A DNA stretch of 46,161 bases. Origin: Eubacterium sp. An11. Lineage in GTDB: Bacteria; Bacillota; Clostridia; Lachnospirales; Lachnospiraceae. The notes beneath the pieces are model-generated. The model worked only from the letters and a program-made list of their open reading frames with translations. It did no database searches and had not been told where the DNA came from. Numbering within the stretch: the first letter of the stretch is position 1; each line of letters starts with the position of its first letter. The stretch lies in contig NZ_NFLV01000027.1 of NCBI RefSeq assembly GCF_002161065.1, positions 1 to 46,161 on the forward strand, written 5' to 3'. Below, piece after piece: positions 13,252 to 17,798 of this stretch. The translations under genes and the position numbers were made by a program.

Positions 13252-15540
13252 TTATCTCCGGTTATAGTTGATCAGACATCCTTTCAGGATGATCTCTCTC
13301 TCATCATCGGTAAGCTCACCCATATGTAAGGTAAACTCATGAAGAGCGCCGTCTTTTACCTGGTAAACGGTAAACTCTGTGGCTTTGTCTTCCACCGCTT
13401 TGCGGACATCCGGTACGAAGAGGTAATCGCCGTTGGCAAACGGAAGATCTTCTCCGTCAATCAGGAATGGAAGCATACCCCAGTTGATCAGGTTGGAGCG
13501 GTACCGTTTTGTGGCATACTCGTTGGCGATATTGGCCCAGCCGCCCAACACTTTCTGGCAGGAAGCCGCCTGTTCTCTGGCGGAACCATCGCCTGGTTTT
13601 ACAGCAAAAATAGTGCTGCCGACTCCCATGTTACCTGCATTGACTTCCGGATACTTCGTATGAATGGCATCCATGACCTCCTGCAGTTCTCCCAGCGCCT
13701 CCGTCGGGTTTTCTCCCGCTTCAATGGCTTTCTGCGCTTTCTGCACTTCTTTCGCTCTTCCCACATAGGCCGGATCCTTTCTGGAGAGAGTAAACTCTGC
13801 CAATCCGAGAGGATTAGAACGGTAAGAAGAAGTCTCGCCGGACGGAATCAGCTCATCGGTGGTGGTTACCGGATCATGAATCTCAGATACCACCTTGAGG
13901 ATCAGGTTTTCCGGCAGCGGACTCATGGCCGGCCAGTCCTTGATGTTCGGTCCCATTTTGATTTCCACCGTAGGATCTGCCACGCCTTTGCTATCAAAGA
14001 CACGGTTTGCATAAATGCTGCTGTCAAAGAAATATTTTCTTCCCTTGATCTCCACATCAAGATCGGTAGCCGGGGTCAGGAAGCCCTTGTTGGCTGCTGT
14101 CGCCGCGATAGAACGGGCATCCATCAGCGCTACGGAAGCAATCTGTCCGTTCTGGAGTTTGGAACCTTCTCTGTTCGGGAAGTTTCTGGTGGAGTGACGG
14201 ATACTCAGGCTATTGTTGGAAGGTGTATCTCCTGCACCAAAGCACGGGCCGCAGAAGGCTGTCTTAACAATGGCTCCGGCTTCCATGAGGTCTGCCACCG
14301 CGCCGTTTTTCACCAGTTCCATGAAGATTGGCGTACTTGCCGGATATACGCTCAGGGAGAACTCATCCGGTCCGATGGAACGTCCCTTTAAAATATCCGC
14401 TGCCGCGCAGAGATTCTCAAAACCGCCGCCGGCGCATCCGGCGATGATTCCCTGTTCCACATACAGTTTTCCGTCATGCACTTTATCTTTTAAGGTAAAG
14501 TCTACCTGGCCGTCCAGGCTGACAAGGGCCTTTTTCTCACAATCTTCCAGCACATCCATCAGATTGGCATTCATCTCTTCAATGGTGTAGGTGTTGCTTG
14601 GATGGAACGGCATAGCGATCATCGGACGGATGGTGCTAAGATCAATCTTGATCATTCCGTCATAATATGCCACGTCAGCCGGATTCAGCTCTTCATAATC
14701 CTGTTCTCTTCCATGAATCTCATAGAATTCGCGGATGGTCTCGTCCGTTCTCCAGATGGAGGAAAGGCAGGTGGTCTCTGTGGTCATAACATCCACACCG
14801 ATACGGAAGTCAGCGCTCAAAGATGCCACGCCAGGACCCACGAATTCCATCACTTTATTATTCACATAACCGTTTTTAAATACTTCACCGATGATGGCCA
14901 GGGCCACGTCCTGCGGTCCCACGCCCGGAATCGGCGCTCCGGTCATATACACGCCGACCACGCCTGGCATGTTGATATCATATGTCTGATTTAAAAGCTG
15001 TTTTACCAGCTCCGGTCCGCCTTCACCCATGGCCATGGTTCCCAGCGCTCCGTAACGGGTGTGGGAATCGGAACCAAGGATCATAGCGCCGCCGCAGGCC
15101 AGCATTTCTCTGGCAAACTGGTGGATGACCGCCTGATGAGGCGGAACATAGATGCCGCCGTAACGTTTTGCGCAGGTCAGCCCGAACATATGGTCATCTT
15201 CATTGATAGTTCCTCCTACCGCGCAGAGACTGTTATGACAGTTAGTAAGCACATACGGCATCGGGAACTTCTCCAAACCTGATGCTCTGGCCGTCTGAAT
15301 GATACCCACATAAGTGATATCATGGGACGTCAGTTTATCAAAACGAATCTTCAGCTTGTCCATGTTATCGGACGTGTTGTGGGCTTTCAGAATTCCGTAA
15401 GCGATGGTTCCCTGCGCTGCCTCTTCTTTGGAAGGAGCAGTACCCAGCATGTTCTGAAGCTGTTTTTCCGCTTCCGGTGTATCTTCCACGATCTCACTGC
15501 CGTGAACCAGATACGCACCGTGTTGTAATAATTCAATCAT
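13252..15540 (-). CDS. Aconitase-superfamily hydratase
   Basis: 762 aa. The protein belongs to the long aconitase/YbhJ-like branch. It has [11 protein letters not shown] (compare aconitase DSHT), AGCAGGG and GPCFGAG, the three cysteine-containing or substrate motifs expected to hold the [4Fe-4S] cluster. A swivel-domain segment follows near the C-terminus ([13 protein letters not shown], matching the usual SRNLxxxGxxP region). The probable reaction is citrate-isocitrate isomerisation through aconitate for the partial TCA route to glutamate, but substrate cannot be fixed from sequence, and YbhJ-like hydratases are poorly characterised. ATG 15540 is preceded by AGGAGG; a 17-residue upstream extension is rejected. 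It has its own promoter and terminator, so the nearness to ilvBN is probably not an operon link. Confidence 0.85.
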
Positions 15541-15665
15541 GTTTCTGTCCTCCTGTGTGTCTGTGATGTTTTGCAATGAAAAATACTGCAAAATCTATAT
15601 TTCAAGGCAAAATTACTGCCCTATTTCACTCAGTTTTTCCGCCTTCACAACAAAATATCGCTCTT

Positions 15666-15694: not shown

Positions 15695-15771
15695 GAATGT
15701 TCCTGCAGAAATGCAAATTTGTCGTTTTAATCCACAGGCATTGAAATTATCCAGGTGCGAATGAAGCAGAC

Positions 15772-15948
15772 GGGATTTGCGGCTTTGTATATATCATAGA
15801 AAAACGCAGTCAGGGAAGTCTCCTCCTCCACTTCGGCAGGCTCATAATAAGCCCTCTTTTTACGACTACGGCCACGCCTGCGCTCACAGTCGTCGTCGAT
15901 CTTCCCCGATCCGTTTTTCTATCATCATCAAACCATGCCGCAAATCCC
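15772..15948 (+). repeat. Nested-palindrome repeat, copy A
   Basis: Outer arms GGGATTTGCGGC (15772-15783) and GCCGCAAATCCC (15937-15948) are perfect complements. Middle arms ATAGAAAAACG (15796-15806) and CGTTTTTCTAT (15912-15922) are also perfect, and an inner arm GGGAAGTC pairs with GATCTTCCC with one bulge. They enclose a 77-nt core (15821-15897) whose two ends, 21 and 22 nt long, are identical to those of copy B. The core has its own GCAGGC/GCCTGC pair (15836-15841 with 15876-15881). No protein is encoded. It may be a MITE-like element or a structured RNA gene; no match to a known RNA family comes to mind. Confidence 0.8.
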
Positions 15949-16120
15949 TGTTATCTGCATCACCCGGATTATAGCAAAGTCACCGGATTCAAACTGATCG
16001 CAAAGCTACCCGGATGGCTTTCTCACCAGGTTGTCACTACCCCGCACAGACATTGCTTTAGATTTTAAAATCAAAGTATTTGTATGTTTCCATAGCCAAC
16101 TGCTTTGCCAACGTAGCACA

Positions 16121-16330
16121 GGATTTTTGTAAATCTCTATACACGCAGACTGCATTTGGAGAAGACAAGTCATTGATGGGGTTTGACGACGACTGTGAGC
16201 GCAGGCGCCGCTGGCAGATATAAAAAGGTGCCGGTTATCCGCCTGCCGAAGTGGAGGAGGAAAACTTTTATCAATGACTTGTCTTCGGTAAAACCGTTTT
16301 CTGTGAGTTGCAAGGAGATTTACAAATCCC
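16121..16330 (-). repeat. Nested-palindrome repeat, copy B (inverted)
   Basis: Read on the minus strand it begins GGGATTTGTAAATCTC (16330-16315) and ends GAGATTTACAAAAATCC (16137-16121). It has a perfect 17-bp middle stem starting GAAGACAAGTC (16286-16270 with 16177-16161), a GTTT/AAAC pair next to the core, and a 77-nt core (16261-16185). The core ends are identical to copy A and the 34-nt centre is diverged but equal in length. Middle stems of A and B share no sequence yet both are self-complementary, so structure rather than sequence appears conserved. The outer end supplies the stop codon of the neighbouring ATPase-like gene. Between the copies (15949-16120) I see only three imperfect CCCGGAT...GCAAAG repeats. 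Confidence 0.8.
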
Positions 16331-17798
16331 TTTTTCTCCGCAGCCACTGCCACCAGAGTTCTTTCCACAGGGCAACGCCGCCGCACACCAGGGAGGAAAT
16401 CAAAAACATCCAGTGGAAAGTGTCCCGGGCTCCTTCAAAGATACCTGCCAGGAGCATGACTCCGTTAAAAATGCAGAGAGCCGCCAGAACTTTTTCCTGT
16501 ATTTTTTCTGTTCCTGTCACAAAAGCATTCCACAAATATTCTCCCTGAAGCAGCTGAAAGAGACCTTCACTCCAGTGTTTCCGGAAATAGAACTCCCGGT
16601 CCAGGGCTCTTCCATCCAGAAAACCCAGCCAGGAAATCTTTTTCTCTTCTTCCTGCCATTCTTCCGGCAGTCTCCAGCTCCGGTCCGGAAAAATGTACAG
16701 CCACTGGCAGCCGTCCCTCCATGCTTCCATGACTTTTCTTTTTGACTGCCTGTCCAGTCCCGCGTAGGCCCGGATGGTATTCATCTGGCGTTCATAGCCT
16801 TTTCCAAGACGACGGTTTTCTTCCAGATAACAGGAAAATTGTTCCGCATCAATGATATCTCTTTTATTATCTGTGACATGAAGCTGATTTAAGATATCAA
16901 ATGCTGTCTCACGGTTTTGGTCTGTAAAAAAGATCAGACGGATGTCGTTTTGATTCAGAAATTGAATCAGTTTTTGAAATGCGTGCGGTCTTAAAACCGA
17001 CGGAAAACATTCCGTATCCAGGATGACCGCCTTCTTTTTCCGGCTGTCCGGAAGGCAGGCGCCGTCCATCACCGTCACGCCCCTCTGAAACAGCATCTCC
17101 TGTGCCCGTAAAGGAAAGGATGCCGATCCAGAAAGAATCCGGGGCAGGATTCCCTGTTTTTTAAGAACCGTTGACCCCGGCGGGCCGGCGGCCACTGCTC
17201 TGCCGGATTCTTCCGGAAATTTCTCGCCCTTTTCATAAATGACACCGGACTTTGTGAGACTGTGTACTGTCACCGGCACTTTTGCCCCCTTTTTCAGACG
17301 AAGAATATCTCCGGACACAATCTCTCTCACATCAATATACTGGTAGGTTCCGTCCCGAAAGACCTGCGCTTTCGGCAAAAACATCGTTTTCCGCTCCTCA
17401 AGAAACCGATGATTTCTCATCACCTGCCTCATCTTCAGAATAGACACCAGCACCGGCGCCGGGAGCGCAGTCAGCCATTCTTTTTCCCCAACCAGAAACA
17501 AAAAGGCACAGAGAAAAATGAGAAAAAAGAAAAGCGGATCAAGACATTCCTGCTCTGCGCTTCGAATCCATGACCGCTTTTTCTCTTTTGCCAGATATTC
17601 CCATCGGTTTTCAGAAAGCCTCCGGTTGACCTCTCCGGCTGTCAGGCCGGTCTTCAGGCTGGTCTCATAATCCTGCTCCAGCTCTGCCGCCGGATCGGCC
17701 GCATATTCTTCTGCCGGAATCCCTTTCGCGCGGGCCGGGAACCCGGGATTTCGCGAAGGGATTTTCTCCTGATGGGGTTGGGATAATATTCTTTTCAT
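16320..17798 (-). CDS. Degenerate P-type ATPase homologue (pseudoenzyme)
   Basis: 492 aa, against about 850-900 for P2-type cation ATPases. The N-terminus has the cation-ATPase N domain (GLTAGEVNRRLSENRWEYL), then two membrane helices (DPLFFFLIFLCAFLFLV...LPAPVLVSI). An actuator-like strand set (VFRDGTYQYIDVREIVSGDILRLKKGAKVPV) and a P-domain-like Rossmann unit (KAVILDTECF; RLIFFTDQNRETAFDILNQL) follow, with two C-terminal helices at the end. The hallmark motifs are gone: no TGES, DTECF where DKTGT should be, and no GDGVND. It should not pump by the normal cycle. The frame is open over 1.4 kb and has a good AGGAGG start, so it may be a retained pseudoenzyme, although its last codons (RDL-stop) come from the end of repeat copy B and it may be truncated by that repeat. 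Function is unknown. Confidence 0.7.
   Translation of the reverse strand: MKRILSQPHQEKIPSRNPGFPARAKGIPAEEYAADPAAELEQDYETSLKTGLTAGEVNRRLSENRWEYLAKEKKRSWIRSAEQECLDPLFFFLIFLCAFLFLVGEKEWLTALPAPVLVSILKMRQVMRNHRFLEERKTMFLPKAQVFRDGTYQYIDVREIVSGDILRLKKGAKVPVTVHSLTKSGVIYEKGEKFPEESGRAVAAGPPGSTVLKKQGILPRILSGSASFPLRAQEMLFQRGVTVMDGACLPDSRKKKAVILDTECFPSVLRPHAFQKLIQFLNQNDIRLIFFTDQNRETAFDILNQLHVTDNKRDIIDAEQFSCYLEENRRLGKGYERQMNTIRAYAGLDRQSKRKVMEAWRDGCQWLYIFPDRSWRLPEEWQEEEKKISWLGFLDGRALDREFYFRKHWSEGLFQLLQGEYLWNAFVTGTEKIQEKVLAALCIFNGVMLLAGIFEGARDTFHWMFLISSLVCGGVALWKELWWQWLRRKRDL

Follow-up and report, generated by a model that had tools for sequence, protein, structure and literature searches.

The BIME mosaics of E. 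coli consist of pairs of different palindrome types set in opposite orientation together with linkers. REP and REPIN sequences are described as multi-copy extragenic palindromes, with a foldable inverted doublet as the proposed mobile unit (PMC3116915), and REPs are placed between codirectional and convergent genes, near 3' ends, where the ends of the repeat often supply the stop codon of the neighbouring gene (PMC3733652). The units described in these papers measure 20-40 bp, carry GTAG or CGTC tags and are tied to RAYT transposases (PMC3116915; PMC3733652), and REP-like repeats are presented as known mainly from Proteobacteria, in the form of very short hairpins (PMC3733652). The element analyzed here is a ~600-base non-coding repeat of Eubacterium sp. 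An11, and its nearest known kind is the REP/REPIN/BIME repeats, which it resembles in layout and location and from which it departs in unit size, in tags and in the absence of a linked transposase. The modules are about 200-290 nt long and contain a long conserved G.A-rich core without a linked Y1 gene; the antisense core does hold CGTCGTCG, but within the long core rather than as an end tag.

In the window, the whole stretch of 46,161 nucleotides that was analyzed, the element and its neighbours comprise the following features:

15711..16330, no strand assigned: whole A-B-type element, 620 bp, with two oppositely oriented end modules
15711..16000 (limits approximate), plus strand: module A, a nested imperfect hairpin whose core is pyrimidine-rich on the plus strand
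15772..15948, plus strand: inner hairpin of A, the copy A of an earlier note on this DNA
15821..15897, plus strand: 77-nt core of A
16001..16119 (limits approximate), no strand assigned: linker separating modules A and B
16120..16330, minus strand: module B, a nested hairpin with the purine-rich form of the core on the plus strand
16185..16261, plus strand: 77-nt core of B, reading GACGACGACTGTGAGCGCAGGCG ... CGCCTGCCGAAGTGGAGGAGGA on the plus strand
16320..16322, minus strand: TAA within the GGGATTTGTAA end of the element, closing the adjoining reading frame 16320-17798
16320..17798, minus strand: P-type-ATPase-like neighbour gene, with Cation_ATPase_N above cut-off
13252..15591, minus strand: aconitase family gene, the next neighbour

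The bounds are set by the flank alignment with a related species (G022), which reaches 15710 and picks up again 8 nt past 16330, and the A-B layout has paralogues at six other loci of the host genome. The outer arms of module A were read off the sequence and the own-genome alignments, and the E1-E2_ATPase match of the gene at 16320..17798 scores 28.0 bits, just below its cut-off of 28.1. Between the cores, 15875-15897 and 16185-16207 complement each other at all 23 nt (100%), and the opposite core ends of A and B have TCCTCCTCCACTTCGGCAGGC in common. Module B is closed by a perfect 17-bp stem (16161-16177 with 16270-16286), and the stems of A pair 15772-15788 with 15932-15948 (88%) and 15793-15806 with 15912-15925 (93%). 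Predicted folding of a 641-nt stretch is 9.9 SD better than that of shuffled sequence (z -9.9, with 0 of 20 shuffles as good); an L-B and an L-A element give z values of -8.8 and -8.1.

The stems, cores and coordinates of the earlier note are all present in the sequence; comparison confirms that the two 77-nt cores are inverted copies and, as the note had claimed, that A and B have stems of different sequence. What it took for two copies of a repeat are genuine inverted repeats, but they form two different ends of one 620-bp element. Its copy A is a sound inner hairpin of a module that actually reaches outward to about 15711 and 16000; the shared start GGGATTTG is found at 15772 but lies inside A, the element's own end being a degenerate copy near 15713; and the middle of the core, diverged as described, is now recognized as an apical loop, different in nearly every copy. 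Beyond that note, there is a third module class, L.

Successive searches of the host genome with the A, B and then L module yield about 45 loci, counted by grouping all module hits. Complete elements measure 430 to 732 bp, most of them 613-647 bp, and each combines two hairpin modules from different classes (L, A, B) in opposite orientation. As in the inverted doublet of REPINs, at least two modules are present at 36 of the 45 loci (11 L-A, 16 L-B, 7 A-B, one L with a B/A hybrid and one L-B-L composite), with no A-A or B-B pairing among the 45. A possible reason for unlike ends is that two identical ones would turn the element into a single giant perfect palindrome. This mosaic pairing of opposed unlike modules is reminiscent of BIMEs as generally described, from which the element would differ in module size and sequence. 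Of the nine single-module loci, most lie at contig ends or have a core-deleted partner; at two the partner hairpin lacks its core, and at one a B is cut by the contig end. In L018 and L020 (C1:1201-1716 and C24:8258-8741 of the host genome) the centre of one hairpin is lost, as expected for a deletion across a palindrome. The hybrid module (L016, C34:25205-25759 of the host genome) joins the left arm of B to the right arm of A at a junction within the shared core and shows exchange inside the core.

The limits of the element are short inverted ends, GGGATTTGT and ACAAATCCC, often lengthened by AAAT[T/G], so that the full motif is written AAAT[T/G]GGGATTTGT. The end motif has 61 hits with at most one mismatch (24 exact), whereas its reversed control has 0. 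From either end inward, the alignments show first a pyrimidine-rich module and then a purine-rich one.

All three classes carry paired changes in their stems, as the earlier note had proposed from two copies and as the alignments of L and A modules now bear out. In the 37-pair model of L (41 modules, three species) 98.4% of cells are paired, compared with 33-41% when the structures are slid by 1-3 columns, and 13 of the 37 pairs have both-sided changes, in 72 cells against a shuffle mean of 15.0. The 45-pair model of A (22 modules) is likewise paired in 98.4% of cells, with both-sided changes in 7 pairs and 27 cells versus 7.8 in shuffles; these L and A figures are favoured by the prediction of the structures from the same alignments used for counting, from which a member in the species G002 was left out. 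B has 7 compensated pairs of 49, a count made without a shuffle control. Further pair types are not above shuffles (191 of 500 for the L set, 394 of 500 for the A set). The stems covary while the core strands remain fixed. In the A/B core model single pairs recur at every third position (A4 columns 62-136, 65-133, 68-130, 71-127 and 74-124), and the steps between them set GA opposite GA with one exception, a UG/GU step. On this model single Watson-Crick pairs in the core can take turns with tandem G.A steps, in which the G.A pairing would be of the sheared kind. On the purine strand G.U outnumbers A.C in L (84 v 40) and A (49 v 14), and B has no such excess (21 v 18).

The elements lie at gene ends. 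For 26 of the 39 gene ends facing an element the stop codon falls within -11 to +5 nt of the element edge, and in 8 of those, as in the window, the element's own TAA in GGGATTTGTAA supplies the stop, a placement like that described for REPs. The stricter version of a simple ORF caller assigns 32 elements to 18 codirectional, 10 convergent and 3 divergent contexts with 1 undetermined, and cruder calling of the same contexts gives 16, 13 and 2 with 1 open; the convergent over divergent excess is not significant (10 v 3, p=0.09). Single hairpins found with the A/B model (R2, below) also occur between SpaA-type pilin and sortase genes, twice on contig C14 and once on C31 of the host genome and once on C19 of the related species G020:

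C14:34376-34771, host genome: pilin-sortase hairpins (L248)
C31:31473-31606, host genome: pilin-sortase hairpin (L249)
C19:32632-32766, G020: pilin-sortase hairpin (L252)

These hairpins have the same core strands and other stems, and all four show the purine form on the sense strand; the upstream pilin genes on C31 and C19 were recognized solely by a matching C-terminal anchor.

No Rfam family reaches its gathering score in the window (0 matches) or on the element at a further 9, 14 and 7 loci, where an FMN riboswitch (99.4 bits; L011 1200-1350, minus strand) is a neighbour of the element at C94:91k of the host genome. The earlier note had likewise matched its repeat to no known family and had named a match of the core to Rfam as one result that would speak against it; none attains gathering score. 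Clostridiales-1 RNA (RF01699) scores 31.5-35.8 bits on an optional 148-nt apical domain at four L-class loci of G022, and 20.1 in L098:

L150 2439-2546, minus strand: RF01699-like apical domain
L151 1818-1924, minus strand: RF01699-like apical domain
L134 7652-7759, plus strand: RF01699-like apical domain
L154 278-385, minus strand: RF01699-like apical domain

All these matches lie below the gathering score of 48 and are confined to the apical domain of some G022 modules, whereas L, A and B proper do not match; L011 of the host genome, which has a 148-nt loop, gives no RF01699 match up to E=5. In the genus as a whole Clostridiales-1 RNA has multiple copies of its own: 21 of the 24 genomes have matches, for example 28 in G005 and 22 in G006. 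Literature searches by genus with repeat or RNA, and with four core strings, returned nothing relevant as judged at search-result level.

The scan of the genus covered 24 genomes and used one model for L (R1) and one for A/B (R2). R1 matches the host genome, G022 and G020, with one weak copy each in G013 and G002, and R2 has strong matches in the host genome (47 rows), G022 (11), G020 (9) and G013 (7); weak R2 rows in G002, G003, G009, G014, G017 and G019 (E 2e-4 to 0.06) were not accepted. The family thus ranges over four related species of one genus, which form a clade in a tree of one gene, the aconitase gene (support 99/98), plus one weak copy in a fifth. That copy (L198 1540-1656, minus strand, in G002) is a lone diverged L-class hairpin right after an ORF, in a species outside the four-species clade. 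In G013, B-like and L-like modules are oppositely oriented at 4 of 6 loci examined and their stems are unlike those of the other species; judged from these loci, G013 appears to keep the layout with wholly different stems. An element-bearing region of G013 (L247, on C50) also contains ~50-nt repeats (GATTATACGGTGATATTTGGATTATCGCG...). The search for further copies that the earlier note had set beforehand as its test therefore found many in the host genome and more in three related species, and its reading as an undescribed structured RNA or a mobile palindromic element family, either of the two, is supported and stands.

Beyond these species, BLAST with one L-B element hit 3 of 145 relatives, the host included. 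Across 397 family genomes R1 gave two hits, the host and G037 (E 0.006 per genome, taken as chance), and R2 one, the host, in scans that scored just 7-8 candidates per genome and can miss weak relatives; at this limited sensitivity no other sampled genus yields anything convincing. An exact-pattern search of genome contigs returned 42 stretches, of which 31 are in Candidatus Anaerobutyricum avicola and 5 in Eubacteriaceae bacterium CHKCI004, the other 6, in unrelated genomes, being taken as chance, and viral contigs gave 0.

The flanks of 32 own elements were compared with element-bearing loci of G022 and G020. Collinear alignments were obtained for 12, and at 10 of these the partner also carries an element, a lower bound since just element-bearing loci were compared; junctions match within ~10 nt on both sides in 7 of the 10 and are looser at C13, C23 and C10_55k. 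Site C10_5.8k is occupied in all four species, by B-A in the host genome, L-L' in G022, B-L in G020 and L*-B* in G013, and site C46 in the host genome, G020 and G013 (one flank aligned, 83-88%). At the window site G022 has an element, G020 a 59-nt gap, and G013 and G008 no element there. Module type and order thus differ between species at shared sites. Identity between same-site modules is 73.5% and 75.5% for L between host and G020, 73.0% for L between G022 and G020 and 71.9% for A between host and G020, compared with cross-species means of 73.9%, 74.3% and 75.0%, own-genome means of 83.7% (L), 85.2% (A) and 86.6% (B), and 78-89% for the own flanks at the four sites compared. Because same-site modules at these four sites are no closer than random cross-species pairs, copies appear to have been homogenized or replaced within genomes. 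By these identities homogenization seems clear for the host genome and weaker in G022, where the mean L identity of 76.9% hardly exceeds the 74.8% between species.

We favour, at a probability of roughly 0.55, the reading that the repeat is a dispersed, non-autonomous palindromic element acting in the manner of a REPIN or BIME of unusual size; as unit size, tag and RAYT link do not fit, we do not call it one. Folded hairpins, as single-stranded DNA or RNA, would be recognized in trans by some factor through the G.A-rich core, copies would spread or overwrite each other within a genome, and insertions behind stop codons would be tolerated. No transposition event, function or autonomous partner was seen. 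A Y1/RAYT partner was rejected for lack of linkage to the elements: 0 of 12 Y1 loci carry the core or end (12 of 41 Y1 places examined), and PF01797 occurs in 16 of the 24 genus genomes unrelated to element presence, with no match in element-bearing G013. A decayed MITE family, derived from a DDE transposon whose transposase was lost or escaped notice, would share the terminal inverted repeats, non-coding interior and multiple copies. It is nevertheless improbable, given that direct repeats of 3-8 nt, as left by target duplication, are not above re-paired flanks in 22 elements, that the stems are maintained and covary, and that no ORF-bearing larger version with the same ends was found in the loci examined or in 8 stretches around unassigned end-like hits. 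To our knowledge, large end hairpins are not typical of MITE ends. Whether sites were inherited and overwritten, or filled independently in each species by a site-specific element inserting at the same gene ends, bears on the differing module types and order at sites such as C10_5.8k, which independent insertion would explain. We consider independent insertion unlikely, as target sites share just an A/T-rich edge, perhaps part of the ends themselves, and inheritance is simpler given that the four species belong to a single clade.

A 3'-UTR RNA in the service of the host, working in both directions to terminate, protect or process mRNA, would account for the position behind stop codons, the strong covariation, the G.U excess on the purine strand of L and A and the sense purine form of the pilin-sortase hairpins, and since the distal module is purine-rich from either side, transcripts entering from one gene or the other would each have a single functional hairpin close to the 3' end. 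Such a role is somewhat doubtful as the main explanation: B is without the G.U excess, a native terminator-like hairpin (read by eye) is present past the element at C19_20.5k in both species, sites of relatives are empty without obvious replacement, and such a role calls for neither inverted ends nor module pairing. The folded form may act as DNA in spreading or as RNA behind genes, and both may hold. A tentative extension of the REPIN-like reading is that a folded nucleic acid propagates itself in place, new hairpin variants replacing resident copies at fixed, inherited gene-end sites, so that stems would change genome-wide and the G.A-stepped core, as recognition site, would stay constant. 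If true, G013 would be the end state of in-place overwriting, unchanged in sites and layout and with all of its stems new.

The family represents a tenfold larger, two-ended REP-like version from gut Lachnospiraceae in which stems covary, the core is fixed and dispersed sites change in concert. It is a clear system in which to study how repeats of bacteria spread and remain alike, and lets one ask whether hairpins after genes serve the repeat or the host.
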